Assembly (NCBI RefSeq): GCF_016616885.1
Contig: NZ_CP067102.1
Span: forward strand, 7,778,501-7,842,500
Source of the DNA: Bradyrhizobium diazoefficiens
Lineage (GTDB): Bacteria; Pseudomonadota; Alphaproteobacteria; Rhizobiales; Xanthobacteraceae
Direction: 5' to 3'
DNA length: 64,000 bases
Shown here: piece after piece, positions 2,315 to 12,009 of the stretch
Layout: each line of letters starts with the position of its first letter
Position numbering within the stretch: the stretch's first letter is position 1
Program-made: the position numbers and the translations under genes
Notes under the pieces: model-generated
Databases searched by the model: none
What the model saw: only the letters and a program-made list of their open reading frames with translations
Told to the model about the DNA's origin: nothing

Positions 2315-2350
2315 CGGCCGGATCGAAAGATCCGGCCGTTTTTTGTTTTG
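2315..2350 (+). terminator. Intrinsic terminator of rpmB
   Basis: CGGCCGGATC (2315-2324), loop GAAA, then GATCCGGCCG (2329-2338), followed by TTTTTTGTTTTG. The 10-bp stem is perfect, the loop is a GNRA tetraloop and the U-tract is strong. The AT-richer island begins immediately after it. Confidence 0.95.
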
Positions 2351-2453
2351 TGGTGCGGCAGCGCGAGTTTCTCCGACCGGTCCGCACTGCTCAGACAACA
2401 GCGAATCTGATAATCGTCGCACACATGAACCTCGCGGGCCTTCGATTCTACCG

Positions 2454-3506
2454 ATGCAGCGCGACCCTCCAAAAGCTCTATCGATCCTGAAACCGCTCTA
2501 CGGTCGGGGCAACGACGGACGCTATGGAATCCAGCATTTGGCAGTCGTTCCGCTTGCTGGGCGAGCGCAAGATGCGAGCGACTTCTTCCAAATTCAGAAT
2601 GATCTGCTGCACGCTCAGCCAAACTACGTAAGCACGGTCCTCGCAACGCTTGGGCAATCCCTTGTCCCCGTTGTTGCGGTAGTAAGAGGCGAGCGACTAA
2701 TCCGGTGCCTTGGCACTGGATTTTTTGTAAGTGCCAGTGGTCTGTTCATAACTGCGGCGCACGTAATCATCGATCCAATTGAGCGTAGTTATGGAGGAGC
2801 CCGCGAGATTGAAGAAATGACGTGGGCTTTCGACGAACTCGAGGTCGGCGTTCTTACGAGCACAAATCCAATTTTTGAGCCCGAGGGCTGGATCTTTAGG
2901 CCCATCGAGTGGGCCTCATTCTTAGCACAGCGAGCGGAGCACCCGCTCCCGATTCCGAACACGAGCCTGAAGCTAACGACCGATATTGCCATCTGTAAAG
3001 CACGCCAATCGACAACAGCATCGTTCTACCAACCTCTTTCCATCATCCAGCAAGGGATTCGAGGATTGGGATTGGCGATTGGGAAGCGGGCAACCGCAAT
3101 TGGTTACGCTGGAATGCAAGACGTCGCTTTTGAAGAGAATCAAGTCGGAGCGAGGATTGGCGACATCCGCTTTAATCTACACGTCGCTTCCGGATATGTT
3201 CTTGAGCACTTCCCCAATAATCTATCTGAAAGAGTAGTGCGCACTCCCGGAGCTTGCTTTGCTGCTGCACTTAAGCTGCCCGGCGGAATGAGTGGCAGCC
3301 CAGTCTTTGACGACGAGCACATGTATGTTCATGGAGTAGTCAGCAGCGGTTGGGAGGGTGAGGGCGGACCTATCAAACACGGATATGGCTCCATGCTTGG
3401 GCACTCACTGTCGATCCCCATCAGGCCGCTTAGCGGTAAGACTTTGACCGACTTAATCAGAGAGGGGGAACATGGCATGCCGCAAATCAGCATCGCAGGA
3501 GCTTGA
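2454..3506 (+). CDS. Trypsin-like serine protease (chymotrypsin fold)
   Basis: The protein is 350 residues from the ATG at 2454; the frame is open back to 2343, but that region overlaps the rpmB terminator tract. The trypsin fold is indicated by GTGFFVSASGLFITAAHV with the catalytic His near 103, a TTDIAIC Asp near 177, and PGGMSGSPVF with the nucleophile Ser near 280. It resembles bacterial trypsin-like peptidase-domain proteins. No signal peptide is obvious, so a cytosolic role is likely. It converges on the reverse transcriptase gene, whose stop lies 90 bases away. Base composition is clearly lower in G+C than the neighbouring core genes, suggesting transfer. Its target is unknown; a defence effector is one possibility. 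Confidence 0.8.
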   Translation: MQRDPPKALSILKPLYGRGNDGRYGIQHLAVVPLAGRAQDASDFFQIQNDLLHAQPNYVSTVLATLGQSLVPVVAVVRGERLIRCLGTGFFVSASGLFITAAHVIIDPIERSYGGAREIEEMTWAFDELEVGVLTSTNPIFEPEGWIFRPIEWASFLAQRAEHPLPIPNTSLKLTTDIAICKARQSTTASFYQPLSIIQQGIRGLGLAIGKRATAIGYAGMQDVAFEENQVGARIGDIRFNLHVASGYVLEHFPNNLSERVVRTPGACFAAALKLPGGMSGSPVFDDEHMYVHGVVSSGWEGEGGPIKHGYGSMLGHSLSIPIRPLSGKTLTDLIREGEHGMPQISIAGA

Positions 3507-3596: not shown

Positions 3597-5249
3597 TCAG
3601 AGTGTTGGGCTCACCATTGCCTTTGACATAAGCTTGTGCAGCCGCCCATGGCCACCCCAACTATCACGCGCGTTCTTGCGTTCAACTGAAGGCCAAGATC
3701 GAGAAGCAAAGTAAATCGCGAGCTGCACGTATTCGGAAACGCCCTTGTAAATCTCAAACAGCGCTTTTCTTCGGTCGTGATCTCCAAACCTACCGACCAG
3801 TATGGCGGCAACGGCACGAAGGCCATCATGGCGATTTGCATCCTGAAGCAACGACATCGCCACCTTTACAGCAAGTGAGCTAGCGCCTCGCCCCTGCAGA
3901 AGAGTTGCCAAAACCCACATCTTTTGCCAATCGAAGAAACCCTCGTCGCCAAGACTTTCGACTAGAGCGCTTTGAATGGCTTCACTACCATCTACAAATT
4001 TCCCTAGATATGCGGCGTAGATTTGCATCATTGAAGGACGGCGCGCCAACTGCTCTAGAACGTAGTCAACAGCGAAGTCGCTTTCAGCCTTCGTAAAAAG
4101 GGGGAGACAGAAGCGCTCAATCACTTCTTCTTGGCCAGGAAAGTCTTTGATAGATGCGAACAAAGCTTGGGTCGCCTTTAACTCAAGCTCCTTAGCTTTG
4201 TCACCTTCATCTTCTTCGTCGCTCTCGTCATCCCACTCTCGTTGAAATCCATAATCGGTATCAGAGCCCCCCTGCTCGAGCTGATCAGAGATTTCTTCGA
4301 CAGCACGGGAAAATAGTAGCTCCAGATCGGGCTCCTCCGCAAAGAGAGACGACTTGGGCATTACGATCGACTTAACTTCATTTAGATGCAGATCGTAAGA
4401 TCGCAAAAATGGAATAAGTTTTCTTAGTACATGATCCGCCTGATCGACGCTTTCTGCGAAAATGTACATGTCATCAACGTATCGCGCCGAAAGCAGACCC
4501 ATATCATCGAAGAAACGATCTACCGATGACATATAACAAGAGCCGAACAGATCTGACGGATAGATCCCCTGGAGAATCCCGCGTGAGCTTCGTTGGCCCG
4601 TATAACTAAGGAGAATCTTCTCCAGGCGATCTGACAGACGACCATCGAAACCATAACCTTGCAGAGTGTTGATGAGCGTGTGCTGATTGATCGAACCGAA
4701 ATAGTCCGCAACATCCAAGCGCAAAATGTACTTCGTCTGGCTTTCCGTCGCATGAAGTCTCAAGGCTTTTTGCAATTCACTCCAGCACTTCCGCGTTGGA
4801 AGAAACATTCCCTCCTCATCCTTCGCAGCTAGACGATGACTGAAGGAGCGTGTCGCATCGATATTGGCTTCAATTATTGGAGCAGCCTCGTCAGCTATCA
4901 CTTGGTAAAGCAAGCGATCTATGGGCGGCAATATACTGCCAGGCCGGCTAAAGGCAGGACCCAAACGCTGTGAATTTGGGCCACCGATCCTGATCCGAAA
5001 GAATTTCGGAACCTCAATGGTCAATGGAATCCCTGGATGAAATGTCCCGTTCTTCAACTCGGCCTGAAGTAATTTTACGAGGTCGTCCCCAGCATGCTTG
5101 TATAGGAATCGCAGATGGGGTGACCAGATAAAGTCAGATCGGAGATCGTGGATGACTCGTTTTAGAGCTCGATCCCAATCTAGCTGCCCCAACAACTTTG
5201 GATCCAAGCCGAACGATTGCTCAGTCTTTTTTTGACCGTTTTCCGCCAT
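3597..5249 (-). CDS. Unknown-group reverse transcriptase (candidate DRT-like)
   Basis: The 550-residue protein has a complete RT palm. It shows VPKFFRIRI near 80, a DRLLYQVI segment near 111, motif A RLDVADYFGSI (Asp179), motif B GILQGIYPSDLFG (about 224-236), motif C RYVDDMYIF (Asp259, Asp260) and a motif-D-like HLNEVKS near 288. A very acidic linker (about 337-352) leads to a helix-rich C-terminal 190 residues of HEAT-like look. No maturase X or HNH domain is present, which argues against a group II intron protein. The layout resembles unknown-group RTs used in phage defence, but the group cannot be assigned by eye. The gene is AT-rich relative to its surroundings. No retron-type RNA was recognised upstream (5250-5365). 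Confidence 0.88.
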   Translation of the reverse strand: MAENGQKKTEQSFGLDPKLLGQLDWDRALKRVIHDLRSDFIWSPHLRFLYKHAGDDLVKLLQAELKNGTFHPGIPLTIEVPKFFRIRIGGPNSQRLGPAFSRPGSILPPIDRLLYQVIADEAAPIIEANIDATRSFSHRLAAKDEEGMFLPTRKCWSELQKALRLHATESQTKYILRLDVADYFGSINQHTLINTLQGYGFDGRLSDRLEKILLSYTGQRSSRGILQGIYPSDLFGSCYMSSVDRFFDDMGLLSARYVDDMYIFAESVDQADHVLRKLIPFLRSYDLHLNEVKSIVMPKSSLFAEEPDLELLFSRAVEEISDQLEQGGSDTDYGFQREWDDESDEEDEGDKAKELELKATQALFASIKDFPGQEEVIERFCLPLFTKAESDFAVDYVLEQLARRPSMMQIYAAYLGKFVDGSEAIQSALVESLGDEGFFDWQKMWVLATLLQGRGASSLAVKVAMSLLQDANRHDGLRAVAAILVGRFGDHDRRKALFEIYKGVSEYVQLAIYFASRSWPSVERKNARDSWGGHGRLHKLMSKAMVSPTL

Positions 5250-5365
5250 AGCTTATCTTGCTGTGATCCGCCATTTTGTGAATGAATGTCCCACATAGCT
5301 CCGAACATGTCGATTCTATATCGAACGAGCAATCCATCCATCTGCTCCACTCAATTTTGGATTTT

Positions 5366-5960
5366 CCGCCAACTCGCTCCGGCAGCATCACGGGAGGGGC
5401 GTACTGTGGAGCACGGGCGCAAGGTCTGCGCCGAAAAACCTTGTCATCTGGCGTCGGAAACGAACCAGCGAGAACATCTCCACCGTCCTGAAGCTCTATC
5501 GCTGCCTGCGCAAGACGTACAAGACGCAGCCGCAATAGCCCGCTCCCCCTACCCCCGAAAATCAATACTCCGCAGCACGATCCCCGGCGGCGTGCCTTCG
5601 AACTCGGTCGCGCGGTACTTGCTCGCGGCGCGCGCTTCGATGCGGTCGCGCAGGCGGGTGAACTGGGCTTCGCGCTCGCTAGGGCGGGTTTGCGGGCCGC
5701 GTTCGAGATCGTCCATGGCGGAGGTCGAGATCGCGCAGGGGATTTCGTTCGCGCCGTCCTGCATCGAGAGCTGGACGATGCCGCGGTTCTGTTCGTGGCC
5801 GATGAAGCGGCCGCTGGTGAGAGTCGTGGGGTACTCCTGTTACGCGGGTTGCGCGATGATCGCCTGACGTCGTTCTGGCGGAAGCCAGGCCCCCCCGCGC
5901 GAGCGCCCCGCGACAGATGGTGCTCAGCGATACCGGGGTCGGCACGGTGACGGCACCGGT
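5366..5960 (+). pseudogene. Decayed DUF2235 gene copy split by a DUF1488 cassette
   Basis: Bases 5366-5535 align with the upstream region and first ~45 codons of the intact DUF2235 gene at 10687. Shared stretches include GCATCAC-GGGAGGGG, a GTG start at 5406, CTGAAGCT-TATCGCTGCC and CGCAAGAC. The copy has frame-breaking deletions. The alignment stops near 5535 and resumes at about 5893-5955 (CAGATGGTG, GGTCGGCACGGTGACGG), exactly where the intact gene continues. Roughly 355 bases carrying a minus-strand DUF1488 gene lie between the two pieces. The rest of the DUF2235 gene is missing. This is a relic of duplication, insertion and deletion, and no product is expected. Confidence 0.75.
5549..5827 (-). 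pseudogene. DUF1488-type paralogue with lost ATG start
   Basis: The encoded sequence closely matches the gene at 8882-9160: both share AMDDLERGP and end TPPGIVLRSIDFRG. At the position of the other copy's ATG, this copy has ACG (5825-5827), although the AGGAGTAC ribosome-binding region just upstream is kept. An in-frame TAA lies a few codons further upstream, so no other early start exists. The only ATG left is internal (5762-5764) and would give 71 residues. The gene is probably silent or makes a shortened protein. It sits inside the decayed DUF2235 copy. Confidence 0.6.
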
Positions 5961-5979
5961 AAACAGCATCGCGCGCGTG

Positions 5980-5994
5980 TTAACCATGCATTAA
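5980..5994. promoter_or_regulatory. CtrA-type box TTAA-N7-TTAA
   Basis: TTAACCATGCATTAA followed by CC is an exact match to TTAA-N7-TTAA(C), the full binding site of the cell-cycle regulator CtrA. It lies 82 bases upstream of the ATG at 6076, the first gene of the ftsZ-paralogue unit. A matching box flanks the other side of the cluster at 8795. Confidence 0.65.
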
Positions 5995-6075
5995 CCAACG
6001 CAGCCTAGCCTGCGGCAATCGTCCAGCCATCATTAGCCCGAAATGCCTTCCCGGTTCGCTCCAGGAGAAGCGCCG

Positions 6076-6588
6076 ATGCCTGTTGCGTTGTTGACGTATG
6101 CCGATCTGGGTGCCCGCCTCGATATCTCGCGCGAGGCCGCGCGGTCGCTGGCGAGACGTCGCCGCCTGCCGCGCTCGCGCTCGGAGGACGGCAAGGCCCT
6201 GGTGAGCGTTGATCTCTCCGCGCTCCGGTACACGCCCCGCCCCCGAAAGAGCCGCCGGGCAGACCCCGTCGATGTCTCCATGGCAAGGATCGAGGCCATC
6301 AAGATCGGGGCCTTCAAGGCGGAGATCACGCGGCTCGAAGACGTCGCAACCGCCTACAGGCAAGTGTTCGAGCGCGAGCGAGAGCGCGCCGAGCGCCTCG
6401 CCGTCGAGCTGCAGCAGGCGAGCGTCGAGGCCACGGCCGCCAATGCGTGGGCGGCACGACTGGAAAACGAGATGGCGGCGCTGCGGGCCGATCGCCGCCC
6501 TGGCGGCTCGCTCGCGGGACGCGCCGCGCTTCGCTTAGGACATCTGGCCGCTTCGATCGTGCAAGCAGACCGCGCGGCCCGCAGATAG
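6076..6588 (+). CDS. HTH and coiled-coil protein upstream of ftsZ paralogue
   Basis: The protein is 170 residues. The ATG at 6076 is preferred over an in-frame ATG at 6043 because AGGAGAAG lies just before it. Residues ~5-45 (LTYADLGARLDISREAARSL, then RRRRLPRSR) look like a helix-turn-helix with a basic wing. Residues ~75-145 are rich in Glu, Arg and Ala and should form a long coiled coil. The C-terminus is basic. I know no function. It lies 52 bases before the ftsZ-like gene in the same direction, so the two are likely co-transcribed from the CtrA-boxed promoter. A DNA-binding regulator or nucleoid/division adaptor would fit; this is inference. Confidence 0.7.
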   Translation: MPVALLTYADLGARLDISREAARSLARRRRLPRSRSEDGKALVSVDLSALRYTPRPRKSRRADPVDVSMARIEAIKIGAFKAEITRLEDVATAYRQVFERERERAERLAVELQQASVEATAANAWAARLENEMAALRADRRPGGSLAGRAALRLGHLAASIVQADRAARR

Positions 6589-6640
6589 CACTCGAGACTT
6601 TCTTTAATCCCCGGCTTGCCGGACTAATCGTGAGGGAAAA

Positions 6641-7900
6641 ATGGCTGGGAATATCGATATCCATGAAATGAAGGCCCGCATCGTCGTGTTCGGCGTCGGC
6701 GGCGCCGGCGGCAATGCCGTGAACAACATGATCACCGCCGGGCTACAGGGGGTCGAATTCGTCGTCGCCAATACCGACGCGCAGGCGCTAGCCATGTCGA
6801 AGGCGGCGCGACTCATCCAGCTCGGCACGAAGGTGACCGCGGGCCTCGGCGCCGGCTCGCAGCCGGAACTGGGACGCGCCGCGGCCGAAGAGGCGATCGA
6901 TACGATCCGCGATCAGTTGACCGGCGCGCACATGGTGTTCGTGACGGCCGGCATGGGCGGCGGCACCGGCACCGGGGCCGCACCCGTCGTCGCCAGGATC
7001 GCGCGCGAGCTCGGGATTCTCACCATCGGCGTGGTCACCAAGCCGTTCTACTTCGAGGGCCAGCGCCGCATGCGCGTTGCCGAAGCCGGCATCGAGGAAC
7101 TGCTGAAGACGGTCGATACCCTCTTGATCATCCCGAACCAGAACCTGTTCCGCGTGGCCAGCGAGAAGACCACATTCGCCGATGCCTTCGCCCTTGCCGA
7201 CCAGGTGCTCTATTCGGGCGTCGCCTGCATCAGCGACCTCATCGTCAAGGAAGGCCTGATCAATCTCGATTTTGCCGACGTCCTCTCCGTCATGAAGGAG
7301 AAGGGCAAGGCGATGATGGGACGGGGCGAGGCTTCGGGCGAGAAGCGCGTGCTCGCCGCCGCCGTGGCCGCGATCTCCAATCCGTTGATCGAGAATCCCT
7401 CGATCAAGCGCGCCAGCGGCCTCATCATCTCCATCACCGGCGGCAAGGATCTCATGCTGTACGAGGTCGACGAAGCCGCAACCCGCATTCGCGACGAGGC
7501 CGACCCGGATGCCAACATCATCGTCGGCGCGTCCTTTGACGAAAGCCTCGAAGGCATCGTCCGCGTCTCGGTGGTGGCGACCGGCATCGACAATCTCGAC
7601 GCGGAGGCGCAGGCCCAGCCGGTGGAAACCGCCCTCGCCCAACTCGCCGGAAGGCTGCGCAATGACGGCCGGCGCATCGCCGATCGCATCGAGCGCAGCG
7701 CACCCCTTCCGCAGGTGGAAAGCCCGCCGCTCCGCCCGCAGCCGCATCACCCCGTGGGGCCACCGGCAAGGCCGGGCCTGGACTATGCGCGCCACGCGGC
7801 GATCCAGCCGCTCCATCCCTCCGGCCGCGCGCCTGCGCGCAATGCGCCCGACGAGGCCCTTCTCGATATCCCGGCCTTCCTGCGCCGCGCCGCCAACTGA
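6641..7900 (+). CDS. ftsZ: FtsZ paralogue, tubulin-family GTPase
   Basis: The 419-residue protein has the full FtsZ core: [16 protein letters not shown] near 15-30, the tubulin signature GGGTGTG at 106-112, and the T7 catalytic loop NLDFAD at 208-213. It should bind and hydrolyse GTP and polymerise. The C-terminal linker is short (about 75 residues), proline-rich and low in acidic residues. It ends in [13 protein letters not shown], a good copy of the conserved peptide that binds FtsA and other ring partners. The usual neighbours ftsA, ftsQ, ddlB and lpxC are absent, so this is not the main division-cluster ftsZ. A GAGGGA ribosome binding site precedes the ATG. It probably modifies or supplements division, or builds another filament. 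Confidence 0.9.
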
Positions 7901-7920
7901 GCGGTGGCCCAACAACGGCT

Positions 7921-8049
7921 CGTCATCCCGGGGCGCGACAAAGTCGCGAGCTATGATGCGCAATTGCGCATCTGAGGATCCATTTAGCCGCAGGGACCGT
8001 TGAGGAATGGATTCCGGGTTCGCGCCAAGAGGCGCGCCCCGGAATGACG
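7921..8049. repeat. Dispersed palindromic repeat after ftsZ paralogue
   Basis: CGTCATCCCGGGGCGCG at the left pairs with GCGCCCCGGAATGACG at the right (about 8033-8049), with inner text containing GATGCGCAATTGCGCATC. This is the standard style of intergenic repeat in this group. It lies between the convergent ftsZ paralogue and the gene ending at 8076 and may act as a bidirectional transcription end. Confidence 0.65.
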
Positions 8050-8075
8050 GCGCAACTGCGCGGCGCGCCGATGCT

Positions 8076-8624
8076 TCACGCTGCCGTGCTGCGCGGGCTC
8101 TCTGCGGTTTCCTTCTTGTCCGCCTCCTTGTCACGGGACAGCCACGCCGGGAAGCGAAGCAGGCGCTCGTTGGTGTCGTTCGGCAGCTCGACGGGCGGGG
8201 CTTCATTGGCCGAACACGGCAGGTCCGGCACTGCCTGTCCTGCTCGCACCGCATCGGCGCGCTGATCCAGTTCGCGCAACAGGGGATCGAGCACGCTGTC
8301 GATCTCGCTCGCCACCGACACCAGGAAACTATTGAGCTCGCGCGCCTCGGGCACGACTGCCGTAGCCTGCTCGATCGCCCTGGAGAGACCGTCGACGACA
8401 GGTGCAAACGCGCCGGCGGCTTGCATGATTCGCGTCTTGATCGCTTCGATCTCGCCGAGGACGCGCTCACGCTCCCGCCTTTTCTTCTCCTCCGAAAGGC
8501 GGGCTTCGATTTCGGCGATCTGGGCCGTCAGGGTCGTGGCTTCGGAAGCGAGTGCATCGCGTCTTCCGCGCGCGCGATCGAGATCGCGGCTGAGATGGTC
8601 CACTAAGTCGTCCTTTCCGAACAT
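8076..8624 (-). CDS. Coiled-coil protein convergent with ftsZ paralogue
   Basis: The protein is 182 residues from the ATG at 8624 (MFGKDDLVDHLSRDLDRARG). The frame is open further upstream, and an ATG at 8756 with GGGGGATCACC before it lies just downstream of the CtrA-type box, so a 226-residue form is also possible. Residues ~10-65 are highly charged heptad-like sequence, an evident coiled coil. The middle (about 70-130) is an amphipathic helical region. The C-terminal ~50 residues are proline-rich and look disordered, apart from a RLLRFPAWL segment. The family is unknown to me. Its position and mirrored CtrA box suggest it works with the ftsZ paralogue. Confidence 0.65.
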   Translation of the reverse strand: MFGKDDLVDHLSRDLDRARGRRDALASEATTLTAQIAEIEARLSEEKKRRERERVLGEIEAIKTRIMQAAGAFAPVVDGLSRAIEQATAVVPEARELNSFLVSVASEIDSVLDPLLRELDQRADAVRAGQAVPDLPCSANEAPPVELPNDTNERLLRFPAWLSRDKEADKKETAESPRSTAA

Positions 8625-8794
8625 GGCTTTGCTCCGTAGGACAGGCGTTTTGCGCTGTAGGACGGCCCTGGCGCGTACCGCCAGCCTCACCACCGACCGG
8701 ATGGCCGGATCGGCCGAAACAGGCATCAACTTCGGTCGCGTCACATGGGCCGGCATGGTGATCCCCCCATCGCCAACATTAAGCGACCGCATGG

Positions 8795-8809
8795 TTAACA
8801 GATGGTTAA
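8795..8809. promoter_or_regulatory. Second CtrA-type box TTAA-N7-TTAA
   Basis: Read on the minus strand the site is TTAACCATCTGTTAACC, an exact TTAA-N7-TTAAC. A TTGACA at 8810-8815 (minus strand) abuts it, so the box would overlap or touch a -35 element, as is common at CtrA-activated promoters. It would drive the coiled-coil gene to its left. Confidence 0.65.
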
Positions 8810-8881
8810 TGTCAACAACCGATGCTGCCACGGGGCATCATGCCGGCGTGCCGAGTCACCTTCGACAAGGCAGCCTCTCCC

Positions 8882-9160
8882 CTACCCGCGAAAATCAATG
8901 CTCCGCAGCACGATCCCCGGCGGGGTGCCCTCGAACTCCGTTGCCTGATATTTGCGTCCCGCGCAGGCTTCGATGCGCTCGCGCAGGCGGATGAACTGGG
9001 CTTCGCGCTCGTTCGGCCGCGCGCGCGGGCCGCGTTCGAGATCGTCCATGGCGGAGGTCGAGATCGCGCAAGGAATCTCCCTCGCGCCGTCCTGCATCGA
9101 GAACTGGACGATCCCCCGGTCCTGTTCGTGGCCGACAAAGCGGCCGCTGGTGAGGGTCAT
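8882..9160 (-). CDS. DUF1488 family protein
   Basis: The 92-residue protein begins MTLTSGRFVGHEQDRGIVQF and contains an EIPCAISTSAMDDL core, then a conserved end TPPGIVLRSIDFRG. The layout fits the small DUF1488 family found in Rhizobiales and Burkholderia, whose function is unknown. The ATG at 9160 is chosen because AAGGAGTAC lies just upstream; an open frame extends to 9385 but lacks any supporting signal. A close paralogue with a lost start lies at 5549-5827. Confidence 0.75.
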   Translation of the reverse strand: MTLTSGRFVGHEQDRGIVQFSMQDGAREIPCAISTSAMDDLERGPRARPNEREAQFIRLRERIEACAGRKYQATEFEGTPPGIVLRSIDFRG

Positions 9161-9249
9161 GTGCGTACTCCTTTTACCGGCTCTTGGCTCGCAACGCTTG
9201 ACCCGAAACGCCCGGCGCGCATGCACGTTCCTTGCGACCGCGGCTTGCC

Positions 9250-9546
9250 TCAGCTGTCGCCGCTGAGCCTGGCGAAATCGTCGAACAGGGCGGCCACCAG
9301 CGCGCGGTGCCGCGTGTCCTCGGAGGGCAGGCTCGCGGCGTAGATGTTGAGCAGATAGCGCGCCTTCGCGGCCGCTTCCGGCCACGACGATGCGGGCACG
9401 GTGAGCAGCTGGTTCTCCAGCGCGGTCTCGCGCTCGCGCAGCTCCTTGAGATTGGTCTCGACCTCGGCCAGCGCGCGGCGCAGATCGGTGGCCTTCTGCG
9501 CGGCCATGCCGCGGTGCTTGTCGAGATCGACGGTATGGTCAGTCAT
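9250..9546 (-). CDS. Small helical protein of unknown function
   Basis: The 98-residue protein starts MTDHTVDLDKHRGMAAQKAT. Residues ~15-48 (LRRALAEVETNLKELRERET) should form a coiled coil, and the rest is helical (ARYLLNIYAASL). I recognise no family beyond a resemblance to small hypothetical proteins of Bradyrhizobium. It overlaps the end of the upstream gene (9539-9805) by 8 bases, so the two form a small operon. Confidence 0.6.
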   Translation of the reverse strand: MTDHTVDLDKHRGMAAQKATDLRRALAEVETNLKELRERETALENQLLTVPASSWPEAAAKARYLLNIYAASLPSEDTRHRALVAALFDDFARLSGDS

Positions 9547-9805
9547 TGGCGACGCTCGCGTCGGACGCTATCGCGTCCGCCAGGTCGGGCGCGCGGATCG
9601 ACAGCATCTCGACCGAACCGAGCACGCCCTCCACGGGCACGATGATCGAGGTGCCGACACGGCGCCAGGCCGAGAAGGTCTCGCTCTCGATCGTCTCCTC
9701 GTCGGCAATGACGGGATAGGCGCCCGCGGGCAGCAATCGATCGATGCCGTGGATGCGGAACGGATGGCGGAAGGTGACGGTTTCGCGCCGCGAACGGATG
9801 GTCAT
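9539..9805 (-). CDS. Small unknown protein, first gene of a two-gene operon
   Basis: The 88-residue protein begins MTIRSRRETVTFRHPFRI and continues with a DRLLPAGAYPVIADEETIES segment that reads as beta strands. It then has TSIIVPVEGVLGSVEM. No family is recognised with certainty. The frame is open to 9880, but the ATG at 9805 gives the natural protein start. The stop overlaps the ATG of the next gene, suggesting coupled translation. Confidence 0.6.
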   Translation of the reverse strand: MTIRSRRETVTFRHPFRIHGIDRLLPAGAYPVIADEETIESETFSAWRRVGTSIIVPVEGVLGSVEMLSIRAPDLADAIASDASVAND

Positions 9806-10091
9806 GCACGCCTGCCTTGCCTCTCGAGAGCGGCCCCAACCGACGCCAGCGATCGCGACCATGCGCTTGTCGCGCTGCAATAGCCAGCACTATCCTTGTC
9901 GCGGGCGGCGCGCGCCGAGGCCGCAGGCTACGTGCACGTTTTAGTCCTCGCTATTGATGTGACGCAGGCGTACGCTCGCCTGCATCACCGCGACTTTCGC
10001 TACGGCATCGACCGGTGACTGAGGGTCATGTGCGCTCCCGCCGAGAAACCAGTCACGAAGAGCACGCCTTCATCGTGCTCGGGAGCATGCG

Positions 10092-10460
10092 ATGGCCCGG
10101 CCGATCCGCGTGCCCTATCTCGTCTGGGCGACCGGTGAATATGGCAGCACCAATCACGGCCGCGGCAACGCGACCGTCGCGCTGCGGCTGGCACGAAAGC
10201 TGCTGCGTGACGGCTTCATGGACGTGCGCGTCTGCACGCCGCGCGGACGCGTGCTGCAATCGGACGAACTGGACGAACTCAAACCGCAAGACAAAGCTCA
10301 AGACAGATCTCAAGAGGAGACCGACGCCATGGCCAAGGGACAGCAACGTAGCAATCGCGAAGCCAAGAAGCCGAAGAAGGACAAGACCAAGGTGATCGCC
10401 GCGGCCCCGAGCCGCAAGGACGCATGGCAGCCGGAGATCGGTCAGGGGAAGAAGAAGTAG
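10092..10460 (+). CDS. Small basic protein, apparently two short genes fused in frame
   Basis: The frame encodes 122 residues with GGGAG before the ATG at 10092. The first ~60 residues (MARPIRVPYLVWATGEYGST ... VRVCTPRGRVLQSDEL) read as a compact domain. A low-complexity Gln/Asp/Lys stretch leads to MAKGQQRSNREAKKPKKDKT and a lysine-rich end. An AAGAGGAGA ribosome-binding sequence lies before the internal ATG at 10329, so the last 43 residues may be made as a separate protein. Either a stop codon was lost between two genes or the small gene is nested. Function is unknown. Confidence 0.6.
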   Translation: MARPIRVPYLVWATGEYGSTNHGRGNATVALRLARKLLRDGFMDVRVCTPRGRVLQSDELDELKPQDKAQDRSQEETDAMAKGQQRSNREAKKPKKDKTKVIAAAPSRKDAWQPEIGQGKKK

Positions 10461-10491
10461 GGGGCAAGAACGAACGCTTGCCGTAATCAGC

Positions 10492-10585
10492 CCGTCATGG
10501 CCGGGCTTGTCCCGGCCATCCACGTTCTTTCGGTGCCGATAGATTGTGAGAACGTGGATGCCCGGGACAAGCCCGGGCATGACGA
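10492..10585. repeat. Dispersed palindromic repeat
   Basis: GTCATGGCCGGGCTTGTCCC at the left mirrors GGACAAGCCCGGGCATGAC at the right, with CCACGTTCT and AGAACGTGG as inner arms. It is a classic Bradyrhizobium intergenic palindrome. It lies between the small basic gene and the DUF2235 gene. Confidence 0.75.
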
Positions 10586-10686: not shown

Positions 10687-12009
10687 GTGGAGCACGAGCG
10701 CAAATCCGAACCGAAAAACCTCGTCATCTGCTGCGACGGCACCGGCAACGAGATCTCGGAAAACATCTCCAACGTCCTGAAGCTGTATCGCTGCCTGCGC
10801 AAGACGGACAAGACATCGCCGCGGCAGATGGTGTTTTACGATCCCGGCGTCGGCACGGTGACGGAGCCGTCGACGTGGAACAGGTGGAAAGCCAACATCA
10901 AGCTGGTGCTGGGGCTCGCCACCGGCTACGGGCTCGATGACAACGTGCTGGCGGCCTATGGCTTCCTGGTCGAGCATTACGCGCCGGGCGACAGGATCTA
11001 CCTGTTCGGCTTCTCGCGCGGCGCCTATACCGTGCGGGTGCTGGCGGGGCTGATCCACAAGGTCGGGCTGATCTCGCCGGAGCAGGCGAACCTCGCAGGC
11101 TCGGGCCTCGTCGCCTACAAGCAATATTCCGGGCTCGGGCGCGGCAACGACATCGAGGACCTCAAGGAAGGGTTCGACGAAGACGGGCCTACGCCTGAGG
11201 ACAAGTTCGATCTCGCCGCGCAATTCGCGCGCATCACCTCGTCGCGCTGGCCGACCATCCACTTCATCGGGGTGTGGGACACGGTTGCGAGCGTGATCGT
11301 GCCGCGCGCCGACCGGCTCTATTGGCCGAGCCTGGAGGAGCTGGCCTTCACGCTGCGCAATCCGAGCGTTCAGATCTTCCGCCAGGCAATCGCGATCGAC
11401 GAGCGGCGCTGCATGTTCCGCCTGAAGGCGTATGAGGAGCCGCAGGAGTATTGGCGCAACCGCTACGTGCCCGACGAGAAGAAAGAGCCGCAGGACATTC
11501 TGCAGGTGTGGTTCGCCGGCGTGCATTGCGACGTCGGCGGCGGCTTTCCCGAGGCCGAGAGCGCGGAATCGAAATACCCGCTGATCTGGATGATCGAGGA
11601 GGCGGCGAAGGCCGGGCTGAATTTCAACCCGCGCACCGTGAACCAGCTCGCCTGGGGCATCCAGCGCAAGAACTCGCCGTTCAGCTATGTCGCGCCCGCC
11701 TTCACCGGCAAGGCGGGCCAGCTGCACAATTCAATGAGCGTGGCCTGGCGCGTGCTGGAGTTTTTGCCGAAGAGCGCGACGTACAAGGAATGGCCGGAGC
11801 GGAAGGTTTTTCTCGGCTTCTACATCCCCGATTGCGAGCTGCGGCTGATTCCCGACGGCGCGCATGTGCATGAGAGCGTGTTGAAGCGGATGGCGGTGGA
11901 GCCCGGGTATCGGCCGGTGAATATGCCGAAGGACTATGTGACGGTGCCGATGCCGGTGGGGCCGGGAGTGGGGGTTGAGGCGGAGGCGGGGGAGATCGTG
12001 ACAGGGTGA
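10687..12009 (+). CDS. DUF2235 alpha/beta-hydrolase (Tle1-like catalytic domain)
   Basis: The 440-residue protein has a GTG start with GGGAGGGG upstream and a CTATAC -10-like element near 10648. It begins EPKNLVICCDGTGNEIS, holds the nucleophile elbow YLFGFSRGAY (GxSxG, about residues 100-109), and has IHFIGVWDTVAS and WFAGVHCDVGGGF. This is the pattern of the DUF2235 hydrolase family, which includes the Tle1 phospholipase effectors of type VI secretion. No T6SS genes are nearby, so a lipase or esterase role in the cell is only inferred. A decayed copy of its 5' end lies at 5366-5960. Confidence 0.85.
   Translation: MEHERKSEPKNLVICCDGTGNEISENISNVLKLYRCLRKTDKTSPRQMVFYDPGVGTVTEPSTWNRWKANIKLVLGLATGYGLDDNVLAAYGFLVEHYAPGDRIYLFGFSRGAYTVRVLAGLIHKVGLISPEQANLAGSGLVAYKQYSGLGRGNDIEDLKEGFDEDGPTPEDKFDLAAQFARITSSRWPTIHFIGVWDTVASVIVPRADRLYWPSLEELAFTLRNPSVQIFRQAIAIDERRCMFRLKAYEEPQEYWRNRYVPDEKKEPQDILQVWFAGVHCDVGGGFPEAESAESKYPLIWMIEEAAKAGLNFNPRTVNQLAWGIQRKNSPFSYVAPAFTGKAGQLHNSMSVAWRVLEFLPKSATYKEWPERKVFLGFYIPDCELRLIPDGAHVHESVLKRMAVEPGYRPVNMPKDYVTVPMPVGPGVGVEAEAGEIVTG

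Follow-up and report, generated by a model that had tools for sequence, protein, structure and literature searches.

Extra FtsZ proteins are known from Agrobacterium, which has three FtsZ homologues, of which only the essential one carries a linker and a tail peptide (PMC13170164). The FtsZ tail is the target of SlmA, a regulator that sits on DNA (PMC4117426), and at most CtrA-activated promoters of Caulobacter the CtrA site lies over the -35 region (PMC11264516). Here we describe a locus at 5980-8809 of a 64-kb stretch of the Bradyrhizobium diazoefficiens genome (contig NZ_CP067102.1, 7,778,501 to 7,842,500; the whole stretch is called the window). The host genome is 8.09 Mb in a single contig. 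The locus consists of two CtrA-type boxes, a helix-turn-helix/coiled-coil gene (HTH) upstream of an ftsZ paralogue, and a convergent coiled-coil gene (CC). As with the accessory FtsZ of Rhizobiaceae, an extra ftsZ gene is found besides the essential housekeeping one, and in the same bacterial order. We put the chances at about even that the locus is an accessory-FtsZ module under CtrA that tunes division.

CtrA-type boxes and promoters

Exactly two matches to TTAA-N7-TTAA were found in the window, TTAACCATGCATTAA at 5980-5994 and TTAACCATCTGTTAA on the minus strand at 8795-8809. The exact boxes which a preliminary description of this DNA had placed at both outer promoters are thus real, and are the sole two in the 64 kb. 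Over 100 dinucleotide shuffles of the window, the mean was 0.01 matches and two matches occurred in none. Read towards its own gene, each box has the form TTAACC-N5-TTAACC, with direct TTAACC repeats eleven bases apart. The promoter features are:

5980..5996, plus strand: TTAACC-ATGCA-TTAACC, the CtrA-type box in front of the HTH-ftsZ unit; its exact TTAA-N7-TTAA part spans 5980-5994
6004..6011, plus strand: -10-like element CCTAGCCT, 18 bases past the first TTAACC
8777..8784, minus strand: GCTTAATG, the -10-like element in the promoter of CC, which reads CCTAAT in most of the relatives shown
8793..8809, minus strand: CtrA-type box of CC, TTAACC-ATCTG-TTAACC (exact TTAA-N7-TTAA at 8795-8809)

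The 8-base TTAA-N7-TTAA motif was not enriched genome-wide (46 places against 49 for a reversed control). The 12-base TTAACC-N5-TTAACC motif had 7 exact sites in the 8.09 Mb, two of them at the module, against 2 for its reversed control, and over the first 30 of 265 listed Bradyrhizobium genomes it had 159 matches against 9. Permitting one mismatch resulted in weak enrichment in the genome (31 against 20). The other five exact sites precede minC, rimP and a Fis-type regulator gene, all three assigned by Pfam, and flgB-like and lytic-transglycosylase-like genes, assigned by reading as they had no Pfam match at 1e-5. Since minC and the flgB-like gene are preceded by it, the motif is likely to act as a CtrA-type box. 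Some of the one-mismatch sites lie in front of genes that Pfam assigns to the ftsW, flagellin, flhA and rpoD families, and of a PodJ-like gene (by reading); 7 of the 24 one-mismatch places read as plausible targets and the other 17 were left unsorted. The second ftsZ paralogue of the genome is preceded twice by a one-mismatch site. CtrA is encoded at 2,125,600 of the host genome, with 96% identity to the query sequence. Several of the genes behind the exact and one-mismatch sites are known CtrA targets in other bacteria: in Brucella abortus, CtrA binds the rpoD and minC promoters but not the ftsZ promoter (PMC2877005), and in Sinorhizobium meliloti it is a repressor of minCD (PMC4433202).

A scan of one genome per species recovered 36 loci, every one from Bradyrhizobium. 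All three genes were found in 35 of them, the stretch of the remaining locus (L079) stopping short of HTH and FtsZ. The two units are in a different order in L055, and in L072 there was a frame break ahead of the FtsZ tail. The 551,285 bases of these 36 loci held 71 exact TTAA-N7-TTAA sites, all of them the two module boxes. With further loci and the window added, the box was found upstream of HTH in 42 out of 42 loci and upstream of CC in 43 out of 43, although the further loci may repeat species already counted, making both numbers partly non-independent. Three repeats (L028, L030 and L033, the same assemblies as L052, L066 and L081) had been dropped. The CC set also excludes L036 and L038, where the match falls short of the long N-terminus; both nonetheless have the box. 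The full TTAACC-N5-TTAACC form occurred at 38 of the 42 HTH loci and 40 of the 43 CC loci. The N7 centres vary, with 18 (HTH) and 17 (CC) different sequences, and the distance from box to gene is near-fixed. In a more diverse set, 34 of 36 HTH genes beside ftsZ had the exact box; near copies (L136, L138 and L158) and a locus lacking an HTH match at its start (L137) were left out of the rows compared. One box half has decayed in L150, whose HTH is lengthened by an internal repeat, and in L156, whose HTH is a fragment. Four HTH relatives had no ftsZ in the fetched stretch, and one of these had the box. The two module boxes stand above chance because of their position, their fuller TTAACC-N5-TTAACC form and their conservation. 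An origin by chance was ruled out by conservation across loci together with the enrichment of the motif.

Downstream of the box, most rows of the diverse set have a -10-like CCTAGCC (HTH) or CCTAAT (CC); L144, L148 and L197 deviate from this pattern. Given a -10-like element after the box, CtrA would occupy the -35 region. CtrA control of the module is well supported by the motif, its co-targets and the conserved -10-like element, with the boxes as putative binding sites. That the genes would be switched together, as suggested earlier, goes a step further: CC also occurs alone with its box in L036-L038.

Distribution of the module

CC was detected in 76 of 265 Bradyrhizobium genomes (E 1e-20) and HTH in 124 of 265 (E 1e-10). 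At 68 of 77 CC places (67 of 76 genomes) an HTH gene lay no more than 6 kb away. This linkage and the box counts above answer the conservation check proposed in the preliminary description, and neither refuted the reading given there. Among the unpaired places, L155 and L156 keep FtsZ and CC intact next to a fragment of HTH, and L036-L038 have CC and its box with neither HTH nor FtsZ within the 19 kb read. The rest were G162, on broken contigs, and G199, G201 and G171, which fell outside the examined set. Across the family, 46 of 391 genomes carry HTH, and they belong to 5 of 47 genera. Outside Bradyrhizobium, two of the four genera (L189 and L190) have HTH, FtsZ including the tail, and the box; the other two (L191 and L192) have no FtsZ in the stretch. 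Among plasmids, five records gave HTH matches, and FtsZ matched in seven records from Bradyrhizobium. Three plasmid copies were opened. In L136 and L138 the box is present and FtsZ lacks its tail; in L137 HTH is degraded, and both the tail and the box are missing.

Of ten distant CC relatives examined, at 26-34% identity, only that of L039 neighbours HTH-FtsZ, being located downstream of it in the same orientation. It has no tail motif and was not used as support. In L142, HTH-FtsZ is followed by a coiled-coil gene whose product has a hydrophobic stretch (6499-7449), and this gene also lies beside the lone CC in L036 (8789-9658); it is a possible further partner of the module.

The three genes and their products

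The coding features of the module are:

6076..6588, plus strand: HTH gene, ATG at 6076; 170 aa, with a winged helix, a 76-residue coiled coil and a C-terminal helix
6641..7900, plus strand: FtsZ paralogue of 419 aa that has a GTP loop, a T7 loop and a short linker
7859..7888, plus strand: core codons of the FtsZ C-terminal peptide, located in the sequence
8076..8624, minus strand: CC gene with revised start, 182 aa; two long helices and a disordered tail in the predicted structure
8133..8168, minus strand: codons for the CC motif ERLLRFPAWLSR, which resembles the FtsZ tail, from its position and a selection analysis

The FtsZ paralogue scored 393.5 bits against TIGR00065 (cut-off 295.2). Its GTP loop, GGGTGTG, is at residue 106, its T7 loop at 208 and its C-terminal peptide starts from 407. 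It is 419 aa long, compared with 598-607 for the housekeeping FtsZ of four relatives, and is under purifying selection (median omega 0.145 against 41 relatives). The preliminary description was right to call it a paralogue; however, it is not the second of two, as the genome has three FtsZ genes: the module copy, a copy at 1,539,092 and the housekeeping copy at 6,418,519. The copy at 1,539,092 is 85% identical to the module copy and lacks the tail. At this second paralogue locus (L045, G000:C1:1530000-1549000) there are an FtsZ of 358 aa, situated between two copies of a duplicated stretch, a shortened HTH gene and two box-like sites.

In a tree of 47 rows, 32 paralogues formed a single clade (100/100), which joined the five housekeeping Bradyrhizobium FtsZ rows (96/89), with the other sampled families branching outside. 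From this sister position, the paralogue arose by duplication within this lineage. The module FtsZ grouped beside the housekeeping Bradyrhizobium FtsZ and not as a TubZ-clade GTPase, in a tree built without TubZ itself. Two extra FtsZ copies of G058 (L175 and L176) were far outside the paralogue clade. G058 is probably a member of Rhizobiaceae, since its main FtsZ pairs with Rhizobium FtsZ.

A long CC frame starting from GTG 8831 was rejected, as its first 45 codons were without coding signal. In these codons, changes at codon positions 1, 2 and 3 were 0.123, 0.083 and 0.118, with an omega of 0.79, and in the CC core they were 0.065, 0.059 and 0.176, with an omega of 0.26. Relatives L153-L156 begin CC at the equivalent of 8624. 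Because of these starts and the lack of coding signal upstream, CC most likely runs from 8624 to 8076 (182 aa), with the box about 170 bases upstream of its start. Both neighbours of ftsZ in the preliminary description, HTH/coiled-coil and convergent coiled-coil, were recovered, the latter with its start probably at 8624 rather than 8831. The tail motif ERLLRFPAWLSR of CC is nearly invariant among close relatives, while the surrounding linker drifts; the first, second and third codon positions of the motif had 8, 2 and 180 changes out of 504. The motif resembles the C-terminal peptide of FtsZ. A Foldseek search with CC returned generic helical bundles alone (best E 0.3), leaving families outside the fold lists possible.

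The predicted structure of HTH combines a winged helix with the long (76-residue) coiled coil, an architecture that recalls RacA. Fold-search rows included BldC, RacA and the DNA-binding domain of pSK1 Par; the similarity to RacA and pSK1 Par is weak and confined to a small domain. The best-conserved DNA-binding part is the N-terminal winged helix. A PDB sequence search with an HTH profile gave no relevant match. Neither HTH nor CC had a match above the curated cut-off in Pfam or NCBIfam, or any match in PADLOC. The polymerising GTPase with two elongated partners that was first proposed would be consistent with these sequences and predicted structures. In many HTH orthologues (e.g. L048, L053, L062, L075) about 35 extra residues (EPFPFRxxRNGAxDSYSDAFSxREPVSTSLENA) interrupt the protein without shifting the frame; a small repeated element has probably entered the coding sequence. 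HTH is lengthened by internal coiled-coil repeats in L072/L195 and L150 (287 aa; 296-aa frame).

Association with nodulation

nodA was present in 65 of 76 CC carriers and in 74 of 189 non-carriers (Fisher p 2e-12, a statistic that ignores shared ancestry), leaving 11 CC carriers without nodA. In the nodA calls, 24 weak PF02474 matches of 163 were scored negative. In Bradyrhizobium arachidis, two FtsZ genes including WN72_03170 go up in swollen peanut bacteroids (PMC9927569). The second tag is printed in two spellings in that paper; should WN72_03170 be the module gene, its expression would rise in such bacteroids. FtsZ2 in symbiosis is the subject of a study cited there.

Neighbouring features

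A 283-base direct repeat, 87% identical, flanks the module at 5546-5828 and 8879-9161. Each copy contains a DUF1488 gene, of which the left one is a shorter frame. The repeats suggest a duplication or insertion of the module segment. To the left of the module, at 5422-5523, a Tle1-like phospholipase gene survives as a remnant of 37 residues (65% identity), and an intact gene of this kind (PF09994) lies to the right at 10687-12009; many relatives likewise have such a remnant next to HTH. Directly left of the module, at 3597-5249 on the minus strand, is a defence-type reverse transcriptase of class UG20 (PADLOC RT_UG20, E 2e-218), adjoined by a trypsin-like gene at 2343-3506 on the plus strand, with weak matches to proteases associated with reverse transcriptases.

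Proposed mechanism and alternatives

We suggest that CtrA would bind both boxes over the -35 regions and switch the HTH-ftsZ unit and CC in the cell cycle. The motif, its conservation and the promoter layout were observed, and from them we infer binding, its sign and its timing. The GTPase site of the extra FtsZ is intact, and a short linker leads to a standard tail; as far as its residues indicate, this FtsZ may then join the ring or compete with the housekeeping FtsZ in it, and could recruit the same tail-binding partners. HTH could be a DNA-bound tether coupling the extra FtsZ to the chromosome, like RacA or SlmA, a role proposed from resemblance in fold and architecture. CC may be a coiled-coil adaptor whose tail motif, itself observed, would fill the FtsZ-tail pocket of a divisome protein (FtsA being a candidate partner) or dock on the ring. 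The net effect would be that the timing or place of constriction is adjusted. The switching by CtrA has strong indirect support; the later steps we infer. The process affected is likely division, and the lack of the full module in most species of the genus points to an adjustment or non-essential trait and not a core need. The preliminary description also raised polar growth, which would be conjecture, and bacteroid differentiation, for which the case would draw on the nodA association, uncorrected for ancestry, and on the rise of FtsZ genes in peanut bacteroids. In S. meliloti bacteroids that differentiate terminally, CtrA declines together with its regulon (PMC6454206), which would speak against a CtrA-driven rise there. 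A bolder version, in which the module is a second FtsZ system timed by CtrA and equipped with a DNA tether of its own, in which CC captures the housekeeping ring's anchors by mimicking the FtsZ tail, and which is favoured in nodulating lineages, appears to us rather doubtful. If true, division would be coupled to chromosome and cell cycle in an undescribed manner.

The HTH-ftsZ cassette could instead be cargo of mobile elements that modulates host division, for the good of the element, at a time set by CtrA, the chromosomal module being a domesticated copy that gained CC. The HTH-FtsZ pairs with a box on conjugative plasmids fit such an origin, as do the 283-base repeats around the module and the second copy in the genome, which lies between duplicated genes in a region that by reading resembles an integrated element. 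However, chromosomal copies retain the tail, synteny and purifying selection, whereas two of the three plasmid copies have lost the tail and kept the box and the third has lost the tail, an intact HTH and the box. We regard mobile cargo as unlikely.

It is less probable still that HTH is an ordinary winged-helix transcription factor for its own unit and CC, with FtsZ as a redundant spare. The sole strongly conserved element common to both promoters is the CtrA-type box with its -10-like element, and the box of CC is kept where HTH is absent (L036-L038). The presence of a transcription factor (BldC) among the best fold rows, and of the winged helix as the best-conserved DNA-binding part, would suit a local regulator, but the 76-residue coiled coil and extra helix exceed the needs of a small one. 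An HTH gene immediately upstream of a tubulin/FtsZ-family gene, on plasmids too, and pSK1 Par among the fold rows also recall partition systems of the TubZRC kind, with the paralogue as segregation filament and HTH as DNA adaptor. Yet the protein is a genuine FtsZ with a divisome-binding tail and is sister to the housekeeping Bradyrhizobium FtsZ, and the majority of examined copies are chromosomal. A repeat search of 5200-10500 (minimum length 20) detected no centromere-like arrays, and we consider a partition role very improbable.

Comparison with known systems

An accessory FtsZ tuning division under CtrA would bear on the long-standing puzzle of why some bacteria retain several FtsZ proteins. 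How CtrA drives division outside Caulobacter is an open question, to which the module would offer a direct route in a major nitrogen-fixing group. The FtsZ-tail-like motif in a neighbouring coiled-coil protein would amount to tail mimicry within a normal division system. A literature search covering titles, abstract starts and passages, with few subscription papers, found no description of this module.

Unlike the extra FtsZ proteins of Agrobacterium, the module paralogue has both linker and tail peptide; partner genes and boxes such as those reported here are not described in the excerpt of PMC13170164. The TTAA-N7-TTAA box, the presence of CtrA and minC as a co-target are shared with the CtrA regulon of Alphaproteobacteria (PMC4433202, PMC2877005), but the extra ftsZ would here be a direct target, unlike in the S. 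meliloti regulon. HTH is predicted to have a winged helix followed by a long coiled coil, which recalls the MerR-like winged helix and long coiled coil of RacA of Bacillus and Par of plasmid pSK1. Unlike them it has FtsZ and a coiled-coil gene as neighbours, and the likeness is weak and limited to the small domain alone. The idea of a DNA-binding protein acting on FtsZ via its tail is shared with SlmA. SlmA is a TetR-family protein, whereas HTH has a different fold and its contact with FtsZ is putative. In TubZRC partition systems an HTH adaptor gene lies beside a tubulin/FtsZ-family gene, and here, too, the HTH gene adjoins an FtsZ-family gene; the module differs from them in the clade of its FtsZ, in the tail peptide, in the order of the genes and in the CtrA box. 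Its components (an extra FtsZ copy, CtrA boxes, a winged-helix coiled coil) are of known kinds; their combination and the tail-like motif appear to be undescribed.

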